Below the pieces are notes generated by a model. That model saw only the letters and a program-made list of their open reading frames with translations. It did no database searches and was not told the DNA's origin. From Anaeromyxobacter paludicola (GTDB lineage: Bacteria; Myxococcota; Myxococcia; Myxococcales; Anaeromyxobacteraceae): a stretch of 64,000 bases of DNA. The DNA is taken from positions 2,790,001 through 2,854,000 of the forward strand of contig NZ_AP025592.1 of the NCBI RefSeq assembly GCF_023169965.1, read 5' to 3'. Numbering within the stretch: the first letter of the stretch is position 1; each line of letters begins with the position of its first letter. The translations under genes and the position numbers were made by a program. Shown here in pieces: positions 5,209-35,483 of the stretch.

Positions 5209-6491
5209 GTCGTACCCTGGGGGAGCGGCTGGGCGCCGCCTGGCGGGCCCTCACCGGCCCCGCCGAGCCCGACTGGCGCAGCCACCTCGAGCGGGCACGC
5301 GCGCAGCTCTCGGCGGCCGAGCGGCTCGCGGCGGTCGGCAAGCTCGCCGGCGGCCTCGCCCACGAGATCAACAACCCGCTCACCTTCGTGCTCGTCAACG
5401 CGGCCTACGCCCGGGAGGAGCTGTCGCGGCTCGAGGTGCCGGCGGCGACCCGGGCCCGGCTCGCCGAGGTGGAGGCGGCGCTCCGGGAGGCGACGGAGGG
5501 GGCGCAGCGCGTGGCGGACATCGTCGCCGACCTGCGCGCCTTCGGCCGGGAGCAGGCCGGCGCCGGCGCGGGCCCGGTGGACCTCGAGATGGTGCTCGGG
5601 CACGTGCAGCGGCTGGTCTCGGGCGAGCTGCGGGCCCGCGGCGCCTTCACCGTGTCGCTCGCGCCGGGGCCGCTGCTGGTCGAGGGCTCCGCCGCGCTGC
5701 TCGGGGAGGCGTTCCTCACCCTCCTGCTGCAGGCGAGCGCCGCCCTCGGCGAGGAGCCGCCTCCCGGGAGCGAGGTCCGCCTCTCGGCCCGCCGCGAGGA
5801 GGGCGCGGTGGTGGTGGAGGTCCGCGACACCGGCGAGCCGATCCCGGAGGAGGCGCTCGCCGATCTCTTCGATCCGTTCGCCGGCGGGACGGCCGGCATC
5901 CGCCAGGGGAGCGGCGGGCGCGGCGCGGGGCTCGGGCTCGCGGCGGCGCGCGGCGCCGTCGAGGGCTGCGGCGGGACCATCGAGGTCGTGCCCGGCGCCC
6001 GCGGCGCGCTCTTCCGCGTGCGGCTGCGGGCCGCCACCTCCGAGAGCCGCCTCCGGCTCTGCAAGTCGGCCGGCGGCGACGGGTCGGGGAGGCCGCGCGT
6101 GCTGGTGGTGGACGACGAGCCGCTGCTCTGCGCCTCGGTCTACCGGGTGCTCTCGCCCCACTTCAACGTGGTGCCCCACACGAGCGCGCGGACGGCCCTC
6201 GAGCTCCTCCGCCAGGGGGAGCGGTTCGACGCCCTGCTCTGCGACCTGATGATGCCGGAGCTCTCCGGGATGGAGCTCTTCGCCGAGGTGAGCCGGCTCG
6301 ATCCGGGGCTGGCCGCGGCGACGGTGTTCCTGACCGGGGGCGCCTTCACGCCCGGCTCGCGCCGCTTCCTCGAGCGCACGCCCAACCCGTGGCTCGAGAA
6401 GCCGTTCGACCCGGTCGAGCTGGTGACGGCGCTGCGCGAGGCGAGCGGCTACCGCGAGGCGGTGCGGGTCCCGCGCGGCAGCGCGAAGTAG
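5205..6491 (+). CDS. Soluble hybrid histidine kinase with C-terminal receiver domain
   Basis: 428 residues from a GTG start (GGAGG, 7 bases upstream) overlapping the HDOD gene by 4 bases. No membrane segment. A short helical N-terminus leads into a phospho-acceptor helix with HEINNP (His53), then an ATPase domain with GRGAGLGLAAA (G2 box). The N-box is atypical: the usual Asn is replaced in FLTLLLQASAAL. A receiver follows (about 290-410) with paired acidic residues in VVDDEP, phospho-acceptor Asp347 in CDLMMPE, Thr in FLTGG and Lys in LEKPF. The overlap with the HDOD gene suggests the two act together. The last 43 bases overlap the end of the convergent transpeptidase gene. Confidence 0.87.
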   Translation: MSRTLGERLGAAWRALTGPAEPDWRSHLERARAQLSAAERLAAVGKLAGGLAHEINNPLTFVLVNAAYAREELSRLEVPAATRARLAEVEAALREATEGAQRVADIVADLRAFGREQAGAGAGPVDLEMVLGHVQRLVSGELRARGAFTVSLAPGPLLVEGSAALLGEAFLTLLLQASAALGEEPPPGSEVRLSARREEGAVVVEVRDTGEPIPEEALADLFDPFAGGTAGIRQGSGGRGAGLGLAAARGAVEGCGGTIEVVPGARGALFRVRLRAATSESRLRLCKSAGGDGSGRPRVLVVDDEPLLCASVYRVLSPHFNVVPHTSARTALELLRQGERFDALLCDLMMPELSGMELFAEVSRLDPGLAAATVFLTGGAFTPGSRRFLERTPNPWLEKPFDPVELVTALREASGYREAVRVPRGSAK

Positions 6492-24903: not shown

Positions 24904-29193
<4,290 letters not shown>

Positions 29194-29354: not shown

Positions 29355-29459
29355 CCGGCGCGCGATCCGGCCACCGCGCGCCTGATTTTCCAGTCGGTTT
29401 CGGCCGCATTCCCCCTCCCGGGTAGGCGCATGTAGACAGGCGAGCGAGCGTCCTTTTGG

Positions 29460-29479
29460 TGTACCCTGTTCACGGTACA
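29460..29479. promoter_or_regulatory. Candidate operator upstream of the GAF histidine kinase
   Basis: TGTACC and GGTACA form a perfect 6-bp inverted repeat around an 8-base spacer (CTGTTCAC), ending 6 bases before the ATG at 29486. Position and symmetry fit a repressor site covering the start of the gene. No matching regulator is known; the spacer resembles half of some LexA boxes but this is weak. Confidence 0.35.
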
Positions 29480-29485
29480 TCCCTC

Positions 29486-30664
29486 ATGAACCCCGATCCG
29501 GCGCTCGCGCTCGCACTCCGCCTGACGTCCGCTCAAGGACCGGGCGAGGTGGCGCTCGCGGTCCTGGAGTGCGTCCTCGGGCTCACCGGCGCGGTGGCCG
29601 GCGCGGTCTTCGCGGGCGGAGCCCTGGAGCGCGGCGCCCCGCCGGCGCTGGCGCTCCTCGCCCCCGGGCTCCGCGAGCGCGCCGGCGGCCTGCAGCAGGG
29701 GCTCGAGGCGGCCGCCCGCGCCGCCTGGCAGACGGGCGCGCCGGTCTGGGAGCTGCCCGCGACCGGCGACGAGCGCGCGGCGGGAGTGGCGACCTGGACC
29801 GCCATCCCGCTCCGCGCCGCCGCGGCGGTGCTCGGCGCCTTCACCGTGGCGTTCGGCCCCGGCCGGACCGCGGCGCCGGAGCAGCGCGAGTCGCTCCTGC
29901 TCGCCGCCGAGGCCTGCGCCGGGGCCCTGCCGCGGGCCTTCGCCTACCAGCGCGCCTGCGAGGAGCGGGACGCCGCGGTGCGCGCCGCCGAGGCGCAGGA
30001 GCGCGCGCTCGCCATGGTCGGGCACGACCTGCGCACGCCGCTCTCGGCGGTGGTCATCGCCGCCGGCCTGCTCGAGCGGCTCGGTCCCGTGAGCCCGGGT
30101 CAGGCCCGCGCCGCCGCCCGCATCGAGGCGAGCGCGCGCAAGATGAACGGGCTCATCCGCGACCTCCTCGACTTCTCGCGCATCCGCGGCACGGGCGGGA
30201 TGACGGTCTACCCCGAGCCGGTGCGGCTCGACGTCCTCTGCACGCGCGCCGCCGCGGAGCTGCGCCAGGCGGTCCCCGGCTCCGAGCTCCGGCTCGACCT
30301 CGAGCCGGTGGAGGGCCGCTGGGATCCGCTCCGGCTGGAGCAGGTGGTCTCGAACCTCGCCTCGAACGCGCTCCAGCACGGGCTCGCCGGCGCGCCGGTC
30401 TCCATCCGCCTGCGGCGCGACGGGGCCCAGGCGCTGCTCGAGGTGCACAACCGCGGCGAGCCGGTGCCCGCCTCGCTCCTGCCGGTGCTCTTCGAGCCGT
30501 TCCGCAAGGGGCCGCACCGGCGCCGCACCAGCTTCGGGCTCGGGCTCTTCATCGTCCGGGAGATCGCGCGGGCGCACGGCGGCGAGGTGGCGGTCGCCTC
30601 GGACGCGGAGCGGGGGACCACCTTCCGCGTCCGGCTGCCCGGGGCGAGGCCGGCGGTCGGCTGA
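29486..30664 (+). CDS. Soluble histidine kinase with GAF-like sensor domain
   Basis: About 392 residues from the ATG at 29486 (a TTG at 29456 is in frame but would run through the palindrome). Residues about 10-165 look like a GAF domain. The kinase core follows: VGHDLRTPLSAVV (phospho-acceptor His in the H-box), an N-box with NLASNALQHG, and the ATP lid with FRKGPHRRRTSFGLGLFIV (G2 box) and GTTFRVRLP at the end. No membrane segments, so it senses a cytoplasmic or diffusible signal. No receiver protein is in the same operon; it faces a degenerate receiver gene tail to tail, 35 bases away. Confidence 0.9.
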   Translation: MNPDPALALALRLTSAQGPGEVALAVLECVLGLTGAVAGAVFAGGALERGAPPALALLAPGLRERAGGLQQGLEAAARAAWQTGAPVWELPATGDERAAGVATWTAIPLRAAAAVLGAFTVAFGPGRTAAPEQRESLLLAAEACAGALPRAFAYQRACEERDAAVRAAEAQERALAMVGHDLRTPLSAVVIAAGLLERLGPVSPGQARAAARIEASARKMNGLIRDLLDFSRIRGTGGMTVYPEPVRLDVLCTRAAAELRQAVPGSELRLDLEPVEGRWDPLRLEQVVSNLASNALQHGLAGAPVSIRLRRDGAQALLEVHNRGEPVPASLLPVLFEPFRKGPHRRRTSFGLGLFIVREIARAHGGEVAVASDAERGTTFRVRLPGARPAVG

Positions 30665-30699: not shown

Positions 30700-31053
30700 T
30701 CAGCTCCGCGCCGGCGAGGTCGCGGGCCCGAGCGCGGCGACCGCGGCGAGCAGCTCGCCGGGGCGGCACGGGTGGCTGAGCCGCACGTCGCCCAGGAGCA
30801 CGGGCTCGAGCGCGCCGGAGAGCGTGATCACCCGCAGCCCCGGCCGCTCGCGCCGCGCGTCCCGCACCAGCGCCTCCGCCGGGCCGCCGTCGTCGAGGTC
30901 CACCACCAGCGCCGCGAGCGCGGGGCGCGCCAGGCCGGCGCGCGCCTCGGCGGGCGTCGCCGGGGCGAGCACCTCGTGCCCCTCGAGCGCCAGCAGCTCG
31001 CGGAGGCTGCTGCGCAGCTCGGCATCCTCCGCGTAGACGAGCAGGCAGGGCAC
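30700..31053 (-). CDS. Single-domain receiver-like protein, degenerate
   Basis: 117 residues from a GTG with AGGAGG about 11 bases upstream. The fold matches a response-regulator receiver: LLVYAED with only one of the paired acidic residues well placed, VVDLDDGG at the phospho-acceptor strand, ITLSGA for the Thr/Ser strand, but LSHPCRP where the conserved Lys-Pro should be, so Lys is replaced by His. Phosphotransfer may be reduced or lost. It lies 77 bases after the cyclase-like gene and is probably the last gene of that operon. It is convergent with the GAF histidine kinase. Confidence 0.65.
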   Translation of the reverse strand: MPCLLVYAEDAELRSSLRELLALEGHEVLAPATPAEARAGLARPALAALVVDLDDGGPAEALVRDARRERPGLRVITLSGALEPVLLGDVRLSHPCRPGELLAAVAALGPATSPARS

Positions 31054-31130
31054 GGCGCCACCATCCTCCTCGCGAGGCCTCCCGAGGAGTCCCACGAACG
31101 CGGGGGGCCCGAAATCGACCGTCGCGGCGC

Positions 31131-33563
31131 CTACCTGTCGCCCGCGTACCACCGCGCCGCGAGCGCGCGGGCCAGCTCGGCCGGCGCGCCGAGGGGGGCG
31201 CAGATCTCCCACACCGCCACCGGCGCGAGCCCCTTGAAGGCGCAGCGGCCGGCGTACCGGAACAGCTCCGCGAGCTGCCCGCCGGGGTGGAAGGTGGCGA
31301 CGAGCCGCTGCGGCAGCTCGCCGTACCAGTAGCGGGCCGCGAGCGCCGCCGGGACGTCGCCCGCCGCGAGCGCCACCCGGCGCACCACCCGCTCGTCGCC
31401 GAGGGCCTCGAGGAACGCCTCGAGCGCCTCCTCCGACATGGCCGCGCCGGCGTTGTAGATGTCGCCGGGGCGCTCGCCGCGGGCGGCGGTCACGAGGGCG
31501 TCGCGCACCGGCTCCGCCACCGCGCGCATGGCGCCCGCGAGATCGCCGCCGCGGAGCAGCTCGACCGCGCGCGCCTCGTCGGCCGGCGGCAGGTCGATGG
31601 CCGCGGGCGGCGCCACGAAGACCGACCAGGCGTGCTGCAGCCCCGGGCTCCCCTGCGACGCCCGCTCGGCCGCGAGGAGCGCGTCGGCGCGGGCCCGGGC
31701 GGCCGAGGAGCGGGCGGTGCCCCGGGCCGACTCGTTGATCTTCTCGGCGATGGCCACCCGGCTCGTCCCGAAGACCTCGTCCTCGATGGTCACCACCAGG
31801 GGCGGCGGGCCGAAGGAGAGGAACACGCCCGCCTCGAGCGCCTCGATCTGCGCCACCTCGGGCGCGATCCGCGCGCTCCGCACCGCCGCCGCGAGCTGGG
31901 CCGAGTAGCTCGCGAGCTGCCGCCGGATGTCGAGCGCGAGCTCGGTGAGCGCGAGGATGTTCCCGGAGAAGGAGATGGCGTCGCCGAGCAGGTTGTTGAC
32001 CGAGACGCCGCCGCGATCCGAGAGGTGCTGCATCCCGGTGTAGTGGCGCTTCGCCGCGATGAGCACCGGCAGGTAGAACTCGCGGCGCAGGAAGTCGGCC
32101 ATGGCCGCCTGGCCCAGGAGGCCGGTCTTCCGGGTGAAGTCCTTCACGTCGGCGAAGAGGTGGCCGAGCGGCCGCTCCACCACGTCGCGCAGGATCGGCC
32201 CCTTCACCGAGATCCGGTAGAGCCGGCCGGCCTCCCACTCCCGCTCCGCCCCGCCCTCGGCCTCGGCGCCGGTCCGGTGCGAGAGGGCGCGGCGCGCCGG
32301 CGCGAGGAAGCGCTCCAGCGCCGCGTCGGCGAAGAGCGCCACCGCGGCCCTCGCGAAGGCGGCGCGCGCCTCCTCGCGGCCGAGGCCGGCCGAGGCGGCG
32401 GGCTCCCGCGCCTTCCAGTCCCGGAGCTGGCGCGCGCCCCGGCCGAGGAGCTGTCCCGGCTCGCCGCCGGGCGCGGCGCAGGCCTCCACGAGCCGGACCA
32501 GGTTGCGGCGCGGGCCCTCCTCGGCGGCCGCGGCGGCGAGCCGCAGCGGGGCGGTGAGGAGGTCGCGCAGCTCCGCCACCCGCTCGCCGTACCCGAAGCG
32601 CTCCGCCGAGACCACCCCGGCCGTGAGCGCCTCGCGCAGCCGCGCCACCGCCACCGCCTGCTCCGCCCGGCGGGACAGGTCGTCGTCCGCCGCGAGCCCG
32701 CGCGCCGCCAGCGCCGTCGCCTCGTCGGGGTCGCCGCCGCCGCCGAGCGCCTGCGAGAGCTCGTCCACGAGCGGGAGGTTGGAGGGCAGTTCGCAGCCGT
32801 AGAGGGTGGCGCCGCCGATCGCCACCGGCACCCGGCCGCCGAGGAGCGCGCCGGGCGAGAGGATGGCGTCGAGGGCGGCGCGGAGCGGGTCGTCGTCCGG
32901 CCGCCGCGCCTCCCGCAGCACCCGGGCGACGCCGGTCTGGGCCGCGACCCAGAGGCCGCACAGCGTCGCCACCCGCAGCTGCCGCTCCCCGAAGCCGGCC
33001 GGGAGCGCGTCCCGGATCCGCTCCTCGGCGCCCCGGAGCTCCTCGAAGAGCGCCAGCGCCACGAGCGCCGGCGTCGGCTCCCGGTCGCGGGTGCCGGCCA
33101 TCTCGGCGAAGGCCAGCCGGAGCGCCTCGATGAAGAGCGCGGTGAGCGAGCGGCCGCGCCCGCCGGGGCCCATCCAGGCGGTGACGACGCCGCCGGTGAG
33201 CGCCGGGTGGAGCGCCGGGGCGAGCTGGGCCGCGGCGCGCAGGTCGGGGCCGCCGCCGCTCGGGCCGAGCGTGGGCGCCGCGGTGGGGAGGGTGGCCTGC
33301 ATCGGGTGGAGCAGGAGCCGGTCGCGGTCCTCCGGCGGGACGAAGTGCCGGTGCTGCGTCGAGAGCAGGAGCGCGAGCTGCACCGCCGCCGCCTGCACGA
33401 TGTCGCGCGCGTCGGGCGCGACCAGCACCGGGATGCGGAGGTCGCCGAGGCTGGTGCCGAGGGAGAAGCGGAGGGCGCCCGGGTCGAGCCGGACGAGGTC
33501 CGCGGGGGCGCGCCGGGCGGCGGAGTAGAGGGTGATCCGTCGTTCCGCGAGCGCCGCCGCCAT
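31131..33563 (-). CDS. Large class III nucleotide cyclase-like protein
   Basis: 810 residues. The first ~450 are helical and not recognised. About 465-640 follows a class III adenylate/guanylate cyclase: HLFADVKDFT with the first metal Asp, NLLGDAISFSG with the second, a strand ending SFGPPPLVV where HTGxVVVG occurs in cyclases, and AEKINESARG matching the VNxAAR transition-state Asn/Arg motif. About 50 residues are inserted between the halves of the domain. The base specificity cannot be told. The C-terminal ~170 residues are unrecognised. No membrane segment. The ATG directly follows the stop of the M28 peptidase gene, with a GGAAG ribosome-binding site in its end. Confidence 0.7.
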   Translation of the reverse strand: MAAALAERRITLYSAARRAPADLVRLDPGALRFSLGTSLGDLRIPVLVAPDARDIVQAAAVQLALLLSTQHRHFVPPEDRDRLLLHPMQATLPTAAPTLGPSGGGPDLRAAAQLAPALHPALTGGVVTAWMGPGGRGRSLTALFIEALRLAFAEMAGTRDREPTPALVALALFEELRGAEERIRDALPAGFGERQLRVATLCGLWVAAQTGVARVLREARRPDDDPLRAALDAILSPGALLGGRVPVAIGGATLYGCELPSNLPLVDELSQALGGGGDPDEATALAARGLAADDDLSRRAEQAVAVARLREALTAGVVSAERFGYGERVAELRDLLTAPLRLAAAAAEEGPRRNLVRLVEACAAPGGEPGQLLGRGARQLRDWKAREPAASAGLGREEARAAFARAAVALFADAALERFLAPARRALSHRTGAEAEGGAEREWEAGRLYRISVKGPILRDVVERPLGHLFADVKDFTRKTGLLGQAAMADFLRREFYLPVLIAAKRHYTGMQHLSDRGGVSVNNLLGDAISFSGNILALTELALDIRRQLASYSAQLAAAVRSARIAPEVAQIEALEAGVFLSFGPPPLVVTIEDEVFGTSRVAIAEKINESARGTARSSAARARADALLAAERASQGSPGLQHAWSVFVAPPAAIDLPPADEARAVELLRGGDLAGAMRAVAEPVRDALVTAARGERPGDIYNAGAAMSEEALEAFLEALGDERVVRRVALAAGDVPAALAARYWYGELPQRLVATFHPGGQLAELFRYAGRCAFKGLAPVAVWEICAPLGAPAELARALAARWYAGDR

Positions 33564-35483
33564 CTACTTCCTCTCTCCCAGGGTCACCTTCGCGCTGCGC
33601 CGCTCGGGCCCCCGCGCGAAGACCACGTCCACGGTGTCGCCCGGCCGGTGGGCCCGCAGCGCGAACGTCAGATCCTCCAGGCTGCCGATGCGCGTCCCCG
33701 CCACTTCCAGTACCACGTCCCCGCCCGCGATGCCGGCCTTCTCCGCGGGGCTGCCCGGGCGCACCCCCGAGACCTTGATGCCCGGGTCCTTGCGCTCCTC
33801 GAAGTCGGGGATGGTGCCGAGGTAGGCGCCGTAGCCCCGCTCCCGCTCCCCCTGCCGCTCGCGCGACGGCGGGGCGGGGGCGCGCACCACCTCGAGCCGC
33901 GCCGGACGGAGCGCGGCGTCGCGCGCGGCCCGGTAGGCGAGCCGGCCGACCGCCTGGAGCCCGGCGGCGTCGATCTTGTCGGCGGTGTCGGTGGGGCGAT
34001 GGTAGTCCACGTGAGCGCCCGTGAAGAGGAAGAGCACGGGGACGCCCTTCGCGAAGAAGCTGGTCTGGTCGGAGGGGCCGTAGCCGTCGCCGCCGAAGGC
34101 GAGCCGGAGCGGCAGCGCCGGCGGGCGGCTCGCGAGCGCCGTCACCTCGGCCCGCAGCCCCTTCGCGGTGTCGGCCCCGTCCACGAAGACCTTCCCCTCC
34201 CGCGCCCGCCCCACCATGTCGAGGTTCACCATGAGCTGGGTCCGGCCGAGCGGGCAGGCGGCGGGCGGCGCGCGCACGTAGAGCGCCGAGCCGAGGAGGC
34301 CAAGCTCCTCGCCGCTGAAGGCCGCGAAGAGCACCGTCCGCGGCGCCGGGCCGGCCTCCTTCATGGCGCGCGCCACCGCCAGGACCGCCGCCACGCCGCT
34401 CGCGTTGTCGTCGGCGCCGGGGTGAACCTTGCCGGTCTCCTCCGGCGAGAGCGACTCGTCGCCGCCGTAGCCGAGGTGGTCGTAGTGGGCGCCCACCACC
34501 ACGCACTCGCCCGCGCGGGCGGGATCGCCGCCGGGGAGCAGCGCGAGCACGTTGGCGGTCGGGGCGCGCTCCTGCTCGACGTCGGTCGCGAGCCGGGCGC
34601 GCAGGCCGGTGGGGCGCGAGTGGGGGCGGCCGTCCTGCTGCGCCGGGGCGGCGAGCGCCGCGGCGTCCACGCCGGCGCGGGCGAGCGCCGCCAGGGTCAC
34701 GCGCGCGGCGAGCAGGCCGGCCCGCGAGGAGACGGCGCCGCGCCAGGGCGGCAGCTCGTCCTTGCCGGCGTGGTTCCAGCCGTCGCGCACCGCCAGGATC
34801 GCCGCCGCGCCGTGCTCGCGGGCGTTGATGGTCTTGTAGCGCCACTCGCCGTAACGGTAGGCCTGCGGCGCCCGGAACGGCGAGGCCGGGTCGGCCTCCC
34901 GGGGGAAGTGGGCCGCCACCAGCACCACCTTCCCCTTCACGTCGAGCCCCGCGTAGTCGTCGTAGCCGAGCTCCGGCGCGGTGACGCCGTAGCCGGCGAA
35001 GACCACCTCGCCCTCGGCCTTCCCGGGATCGGAGAAGGTGAAGGGCTGCCAGTCGCGCTGGAGCGCGAGCGGCGCGCCACCGAGGGAGAGCGCGTTCTCG
35101 CCGCGGAGGACCGCGCGCACCGGGGCGTCGAAGGGCTGCAGGTAGCCCTCCGTCCCCGCCGGCGCGAGACCGAGGGCGCGGAAGCGACCGGCCACCCAGT
35201 CGGCGGCGGCGGCGTTCCCCGGCGTGCCCACGCCGCGGCCGGTGCGGAGCGGGTCGGCGAGCCAGGTCACGTCGGCCTTCATCGGGGCGCCCTGGATGGT
35301 GGACTCGGGATCCGCCGCCCCCTCCCCGGCCCTTTCCCGCTGCGCGGGAGAGGGAGGTGGCACCGCGTCGGCCCTCCCCGGCTGCGCGGCAACGAGGGCT
35401 GGGCTGGCGTCGGCGCGCGCCGGTTCGGTGGGGGTCGGGGCCGGCGCCGCGGCCAGGAGCAGCGCGAGGATGGCGAGGTCCAT
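33564..35483 (-). CDS. Secreted M28-family zinc metallopeptidase with PDZ domain
   Basis: 639 residues. A signal peptide (about 1-22) is followed by a variable segment that includes a repeat-encoded stretch, then an M28 peptidase with a protease-associated insert and five zinc ligands visible: GAHYDH, ADDNASG, GEELG, NLDMVG and DYHRPTDT. The C-terminal 85 residues are a PDZ domain (PGSPAEKAGIAGGDVVLEV). It should cleave N-terminal residues from peptides in the periplasm or outside. It is the first gene of an operon with the cyclase-like and receiver-like genes, an unusual setting for a peptidase. It is divergent from panD. Confidence 0.9.
   Translation of the reverse strand: MDLAILALLLAAAPAPTPTEPARADASPALVAAQPGRADAVPPPSPAQRERAGEGAADPESTIQGAPMKADVTWLADPLRTGRGVGTPGNAAAADWVAGRFRALGLAPAGTEGYLQPFDAPVRAVLRGENALSLGGAPLALQRDWQPFTFSDPGKAEGEVVFAGYGVTAPELGYDDYAGLDVKGKVVLVAAHFPREADPASPFRAPQAYRYGEWRYKTINAREHGAAAILAVRDGWNHAGKDELPPWRGAVSSRAGLLAARVTLAALARAGVDAAALAAPAQQDGRPHSRPTGLRARLATDVEQERAPTANVLALLPGGDPARAGECVVVGAHYDHLGYGGDESLSPEETGKVHPGADDNASGVAAVLAVARAMKEAGPAPRTVLFAAFSGEELGLLGSALYVRAPPAACPLGRTQLMVNLDMVGRAREGKVFVDGADTAKGLRAEVTALASRPPALPLRLAFGGDGYGPSDQTSFFAKGVPVLFLFTGAHVDYHRPTDTADKIDAAGLQAVGRLAYRAARDAALRPARLEVVRAPAPPSRERQGERERGYGAYLGTIPDFEERKDPGIKVSGVRPGSPAEKAGIAGGDVVLEVAGTRIGSLEDLTFALRAHRPGDTVDVVFARGPERRSAKVTLGERK
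35318..35355 (-). repeat. Dispersed palindromic repeat, type A, inside the M28 peptidase gene
   Basis: 38 bases, 33 of 38 identical to the copy at 29124-29161 in the same orientation. It lies in the region coding for residues about 43-55 of the peptidase, where it is read as PPSPAQRERAGEG, between the signal peptide and the catalytic domain. Confidence 0.75.

Follow-up and report, generated by a model that had tools for sequence, protein, structure and literature searches.

The window, meaning the whole 64,000-nucleotide stretch of DNA analyzed here, encodes an 810-residue protein that, judged from its sequence and a structural model, is most likely an active enzyme and a new variant of the class III cyclases that is enlarged and has diverged strongly. 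More specifically, it is considered probable that this is a class III-type nucleotidyl cyclase, soluble and catalytically competent, whose family goes unrecognized by the models searched. The analysis shows the predicted fold, an invariant pair of aspartates together with an invariant asparagine and arginine, large insertions that are conserved, and a separate all-helical N-terminal domain.

Gene, Neighbors, and Genomic Spread

31131-33563, reverse strand: open reading frame of the diverged class III cyclase family, 810 amino acids, ATG start, with homologues
33564-35483, reverse strand: upstream adjoining gene, an M28 peptidase with a PDZ domain (Pfam), joined through a TAGATG junction

The open reading frame is real and a member of a conserved family; its ATG directly abuts the stop codon of the upstream gene. 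Among 60 relatives, 33 have a homologue; across the phylum, a single-sequence search found one in 53 of 195 genomes and a profile search in 56 of 195. A scan of GTDB contigs returned 15 loci labeled Anaeromyxobacter, Myxococcaceae, Myxococcales, or Deltaproteobacteria, and none of the nine genomes examined from genus g3 of the same family gave a match. The highest mean hydropathy over 19 residues (Kyte–Doolittle) is 1.43, with no obvious membrane helix, so that by hydropathy the new family would be soluble.

Neighboring genes were chosen by open reading frame length and codon-position GC with a custom script rather than a gene finder. The M28 peptidase gene separates the cyclase gene from panD; in several relatives, panD is the divergent neighbor of the cyclase gene. 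A copy of the peptidase with 68% identity is also located upstream of a cyclase-family gene at locus L109; as this was its only tblastn match among the 35 loci compared, where the same genome occurs twice in some cases, it was rejected as a general partner. Downstream of the cyclase gene lies a small open reading frame (30700-31059, reverse strand) that we take to resemble a degenerate response-regulator receiver; it had no Pfam match at E<=0.01 and no tblastn match in any of the same 35 loci. Farther along are a large Lhr-type helicase (24904-29193, forward strand) and a histidine kinase (29456-30664, forward strand), the latter convergent with the cyclase gene. Since the cyclase-family gene adjoins panD/trpE in several relatives, and none of the PADLOC models matched the window protein, a reading as a Pycsar-type defense gene was set aside.

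Searches with Sequence Models

Searches of Pfam, NCBIfam, PADLOC, and PDB sequences, whether with the single protein or with a 16-row alignment, yielded no credible relative. The 810-residue protein had no Pfam match at E<=1, none of 16 family members matched PF00211 (Guanylate_cyc) at that threshold, and the protein falls outside PF00211 by the gathering cut-off. A PDB sequence search with the 16-row profile returned nothing. The scattered weak matches were all taken as chance: pfkB in NCBIfam (E 0.014, 14.4 bits against a cut-off of 292), a maltose-binding fusion among PDB sequences (E 0.019), DUF4349 and T4_Rnl1_C in one member each (both E 0.0059), DUF7291 (E 0.0092) and atpD (E 0.0025) in single members, LmuB in single members (E 0.065 and 0.075), and PAS_5 in two members (best E 0.046). 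A literature search at the level of abstracts, covering few subscription journals, found no description of this cyclase family among the papers listed.

Predicted Fold of the Catalytic Domain

31191-32183, reverse strand: enlarged catalytic domain of class III cyclase type, residues 461-791, predicted from the model, Foldseek/VIA-align, and hhalign

An AlphaFold2 model of the 810-residue protein, built from the 16-row alignment, has a mean pLDDT of 83.4, and the predicted fold is that of a class III cyclase. With this model, Foldseek gave eight matches at E<=0.001, the best being Cya2 (E 1.5e-4) and CyaB (E 4.8e-4). VIA-align, which re-examines Foldseek's top chains, aligned 155-183 residues among the matches listed, mainly spanning 434-792, and all 50 of those matches were class III cyclases (Z 12.6-14.3).

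A comparison of profiles gave a concordant picture. Of 30 class III loci collected as a canonical set, three (L058-L060) were outside the search pattern, which left 27 canonical myxococcal domains. Against these, the family core scored 50.4 in hhalign (P 1.9e-7), a value reached by none of 200 column-shuffled templates (maximum 23.2) and compared with 13.5 for a reversed template. In this alignment, DVKDFT falls opposite DIxxFT, and LLGDA opposite IGDA; when the alignment is global (P 1.8e-6), IAEKINESAR is matched to GDxVNxASR. Against the canonical domains, the N-terminal part gave P 0.33 and the C-terminal part P 0.16. In the predicted secondary structure, D472 is part of strand 466-474, and D528 is found between two strands of a hairpin (521-526 and 529-534); these are the places that the two metal-binding aspartates occupy in canonical class III domains. 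A modeled structure lacking the cyclase fold, or one with the metal-binding aspartates apart, had been named beforehand as refuting the original prediction. The model did not refute it, having the class III fold and both aspartates in the canonical secondary structure elements.

The palm fold is common to class III cyclases, GGDEF, and Cas10 enzymes, and this kinship, together with an unusual base pocket, would leave room for another nucleotidyl chemistry, such as the making of a cyclic dinucleotide or oligonucleotide. That reading is regarded as highly improbable, as class III cyclases are what the Asn-x3-Arg segment fits, as does a structural match that reaches the C-terminal strands, and they are the only class among the VIA-align matches listed.

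Enlarged Layout

31836-31904, reverse strand: variable insert, residues 554-576, between a helix and strand beta-4
31467-31709, reverse strand: mostly helical insertion, residues 619-699, absent from canonical class III domains

The proposed class III cyclase domain is enlarged at three points: between the metal-binding aspartates, before beta-4, and between the catalytic arginine and the C-terminal lysine. The aspartates are separated by 55 residues in 35 of 41 rows and by 52-56 in the others, versus 43 in all 27 canonical domains. The insert before beta-4 comprises 23 residues here and 13-164 across the 41 rows. From R614 to K777 the distance is 120-179 residues in 41 rows. A pattern found the KG motif in 24 of the 27 canonical domains, and there the corresponding distance is 28-36. 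These distances bear out the enlarged domain that had been predicted. The layout proposed with it held in part: the unrecognized front stands, at about 435 residues and all helical, whereas the approximately 170 residues placed behind the domain do not form an additional part, because class III cyclases match the model structurally up to about residue 791. The same ground served to reject a separate C-terminal domain, and most of the residues in question, given the enlargement between arginine and lysine, lie inside the enlarged domain.

Catalytic Residues and Their Conservation

32133-32156, reverse strand: FADVKDFT with the first metal-binding aspartate, D472; 41 of 41 readable rows
31977-31997, reverse strand: NNLLGDA with the second metal-binding aspartate, D528, and Asn524 four residues before it; 41 of 41 readable rows each
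31710-31739, reverse strand: INESARGTAR with the predicted catalytic residues Asn610 and Arg614; 41 of 41 readable rows
31230-31238, reverse strand: FKG with K777, in the position of the C-terminal KG motif; 40 rows, weak profile match

The original prediction had listed two metal-binding aspartates and an asparagine and arginine resembling VNxAAR, and had supposed that every residue needed for catalysis is kept. Both statements agree with the alignment, in which D472, D528, N610, and R614 are each invariant in all readable rows; as far as the sequence goes, the residues needed for the catalytic chemistry are retained. The segments FADVKDFT (470), NNLLGDA (523), and INESAR (609) each occur once in the protein, and the Asn-x3-Arg spacing of N610 and R614 is identical to that of VNxAxR. 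The alignment comprises 43 rows including the window protein, of which 41 are readable, L012 and L015 being cut at contig ends. A 44th aligned row, L026, is an out-of-frame fragment (frame 2) and was excluded throughout; repeats sharing the same last 300 letters and the protein's own copy (L001) were removed.

The rows were drawn from the best-match loci and do not cover every one of the 53 or 56 matching genomes; some of the rows are closely related. Within the catalytic domain, 34 of 331 positions are invariant, and the chance of the four named positions all being invariant is approximately 1e-4, a rough figure because adjoining residues are not independent. Position 777 is lysine in 30, arginine in 9, and cysteine in 1 of the 40 rows with a residue there, that is, lysine or arginine in 39 of 40. 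K777 presumably corresponds to the phosphate-binding lysine of the mammalian enzymes, and its segment alone gave a weak match in profile comparison (P 0.029).

The proposed working form is a head-to-tail homodimer as in other class III cyclases. In each composite site, D472 and D528 of one chain would bind two Mg2+ or Mn2+ ions, and N610 and R614 of the partner chain would stabilize the transition state, a nucleoside triphosphate thereby yielding pyrophosphate and a 3',5'-cyclic mononucleotide. Closure of the dimer may be governed by the helical N-terminal half. The segment with the asparagine and arginine is poorly modeled (pLDDT <50 at 607-611 and 613-618), and at such values its predicted geometry is unproven.

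The N-Terminal Helical Half

32259-33563, reverse strand: N-terminal all-helical domain, residues 1-435, with no Pfam family and no convincing PDB fold

Modeled alone, residues 1-435 form an almost entirely helical structure with a pLDDT of 91.1 and a pTM of 0.92. The best Foldseek match of this domain had an unconvincing E of 0.096. TTYH3 was rejected as a relative; its VIA-align Z of 7.4, the best obtained, falls in the range that VIA calls common for helical models, and the rmsd was 7.5 over 107 residues. The front part, described earlier as unrecognized, remained without a relative in the profile search, where the best E against PDB sequences was 0.32. Only three of 440 N-terminal positions are invariant, compared with the 34 of 331 given above for the catalytic domain, although gaps were allowed for differently in the two counts.

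The N-terminal half may have a regulatory role. The sensory function first suggested for it found no support: no known family or fold was matched, and a scaffold is equally possible. A helical front that is modeled confidently and has no convincing PDB match would be a candidate for a new regulatory domain.

Base-Reading Positions and Substrate

The two positions that read the nucleobase are presumably those four residues before the second metal-binding aspartate and seven before the asparagine. Here they are occupied by Asn524 and Val603, each in all 41 readable rows. In the canonical domains of the relatives, the first position is lysine in all 27 and the second threonine in 20, alanine in 5, and aspartate in 2. 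Published work (PMC7384201) assigns lysine with aspartate or threonine to adenylyl cyclases and glutamate with cysteine or serine to guanylyl cyclases. Asn524 and Val603 correspond to neither pair, and the protein was accordingly not filed as an adenylyl or a guanylyl cyclase. Across the aligned sequences the two residues are fixed within the family and not drifting. With both at the places of the canonical pairs, the choice of base is not readable from the residues. These non-canonical residues went unremarked in the original prediction. An invariant non-canonical pocket would offer a direct test of nucleotide choice in class III cyclases.

ATP is the plainest guess for the substrate. An ordinary adenylyl cyclase making cAMP from ATP, in which Asn524 and Val603 hold adenine differently, would be a special case of the preferred explanation and is given somewhat less than an even chance. 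It would fit the module of the relatives, where a canonical cyclase is accompanied by CRP and a phosphodiesterase of the class II cAMP family; the adenine-type lysine occurs in all 27 canonical domains, and the receptor served by the new gene would be the same one. Set against this, both members of the published adenine pair, lysine and aspartate or threonine (PMC7384201), are absent. In a bolder proposal, possible if rather improbable, the family would have its own base-recognition code and make a cyclic nucleotide beyond or besides cAMP and cGMP, such as cCMP, cUMP, or cIMP. A new all-helical regulatory domain would control it, and a housekeeping regulator of CRP type would read the product.

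The CRP–Phosphodiesterase Module

The window genome (4.59 Mb in one contig, 99.97% complete) gave no matches to PF00211, PF01295, or CYTH, and the new gene is the only cyclase candidate found in it. Five cNMP-binding domains are encoded, the strongest in a CRP-type protein (genome positions 1329738-1330388) with a GE...RSA cassette. At approximately 1.33 Mb (L133:4975-6389), the genes for the CRP-type protein and a class II phosphodiesterase (PDE) overlap or abut, with CRP at 5736-6389 and the PDE starting at the end of CRP, at a GTG at 5739 or 5733. The PDE keeps HSHLDH. Since the new gene is the only candidate, its cyclic nucleotide would probably feed the retained CRP-type regulator, and the class II PDE would remove it. 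Genomes free of class III cyclases by Pfam could then still encode one, which could explain a genome that has a cyclic-nucleotide receptor and a phosphodiesterase yet no visible cyclase.

In the relatives, the genes usually run in the order purM, canonical class III cyclase, CRP, PDE, accD, and folC, with single genes unseen in some loci. In the window genome, the canonical cyclase is missing between purM and CRP, and CRP and PDE remain. Nineteen spots of the same family were fetched and 18 were readable, the contig of G014 stopping before the spot. The canonical cyclase is present at five (G002, G005, G010, G012, and G023) and missing from 13 (G000, G001, G003, G004, G006, G007, G009, G011, G015, G016, G017, G019, and G021). 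Because only nine of these 13 genomes carry the new gene, with partial matches at contig ends in G001 and G017, loss of the module cyclase is not tied to it.

The new gene was not found in the remaining four, G003, G016, G019, and G021. G003 and G019 keep CRP with an intact cassette, and neither a cyclase nor a PDE was found in them; a kept CRP is therefore no proof of a cyclase. In G021, both CRP and PDE are kept, and a single PF00211 match lies elsewhere. At L155, L156, and L157 (G003, G019, and G016, respectively), CRP lies between purM and accD and the spot is without cyclase and PDE, as if the signaling module had been lost stepwise. Three Myxococcaceae genomes (G113, G114, and G118) have the new gene within the module, flanked by PDE and accD, and the canonical cyclase as well. 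Among the other five Myxococcaceae loci, L101-L104 have no PDE or CRP beside the gene and L106 is too short.

PF02112 was matched in 43 of the 60 relatives, one of them (G042) below the curated cut-off, and all 43 also have PF00211 or the new gene. All five genomes with PF02112 and no PF00211 match have the new gene (G000, G001, G006, G014, and G017, of which G001, G014, and G017 are only 79-80% complete). Within the same family, all 13 genomes with the new gene also have a PDE, as do 2 of the 11 without it by profile, or 3 of 11 counting G021. The profile thus misses at least one PDE, that of G021, which tblastn detected. Among the 60 relatives, the new gene occurs alongside a PDE in 28 and a CRP in 26 of 33 genomes, and G041 carries it with no PDE, CRP, or PF00211 match. 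As the genomes share ancestry, these co-occurrence counts are not independent.

These distributions also bear on whether the domain is catalytic. A silent or vestigial class III domain could serve as a dimerizing or nucleotide-sensing regulator, which would accord with base-selecting positions that are non-canonical in every readable row, with the large insertions, and with a PF00211 match also being present in 27 of the 33 relatives that have the new gene. Such a role is judged unlikely: a silent domain should lose some of the metal-binding and Asn/Arg residues, which are kept in 41 of 41 rows in relatives down to 22% identity, and the five relatives just named keep a PDE without a PF00211 match.

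Comparison with Known Systems

The proposed cyclase resembles the class III cyclases (PF00211; Cya2, CyaB, CyaC, and soluble guanylyl cyclase) in the predicted fold over approximately residues 434-792, in the two metal-binding aspartates, and in the Asn-x3-Arg segment; the C-terminal KG motif is probably also common to both. It differs from them in 12 additional residues between the aspartates, in about 130 extra residues between arginine and lysine, and in the variable insert before beta-4. It would also read the base with asparagine and valine, and PF00211 does not match it at E<=1.

Among known enzymes, PycC of the Pycsar system is likewise class III-type and has its base chosen by other residues. 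In the cCMP-making EaPycC (PMC11224242), R142 lies four residues before the metal-binding aspartate D146, the place of Asn524. It is there described as one of three residues needed for the use of CTP, and its change to alanine abolished activity (PMC11224242). The new protein has Asn524 and Leu526 where EaPycC has Arg142 and Gln144.

A further comparison is with the canonical cyclase of the CRP–PDE–accD–folC module. Its catalytic domain is canonical, 50-80% identical to the PF00211 domains of relatives; the new family differs in being soluble by hydropathy and in having a different front domain. The canonical enzyme is presumably the 'CHASE2' protein. The two cyclases occur in the same module in three Myxococcaceae genomes and possibly share the same receptor and phosphodiesterase.
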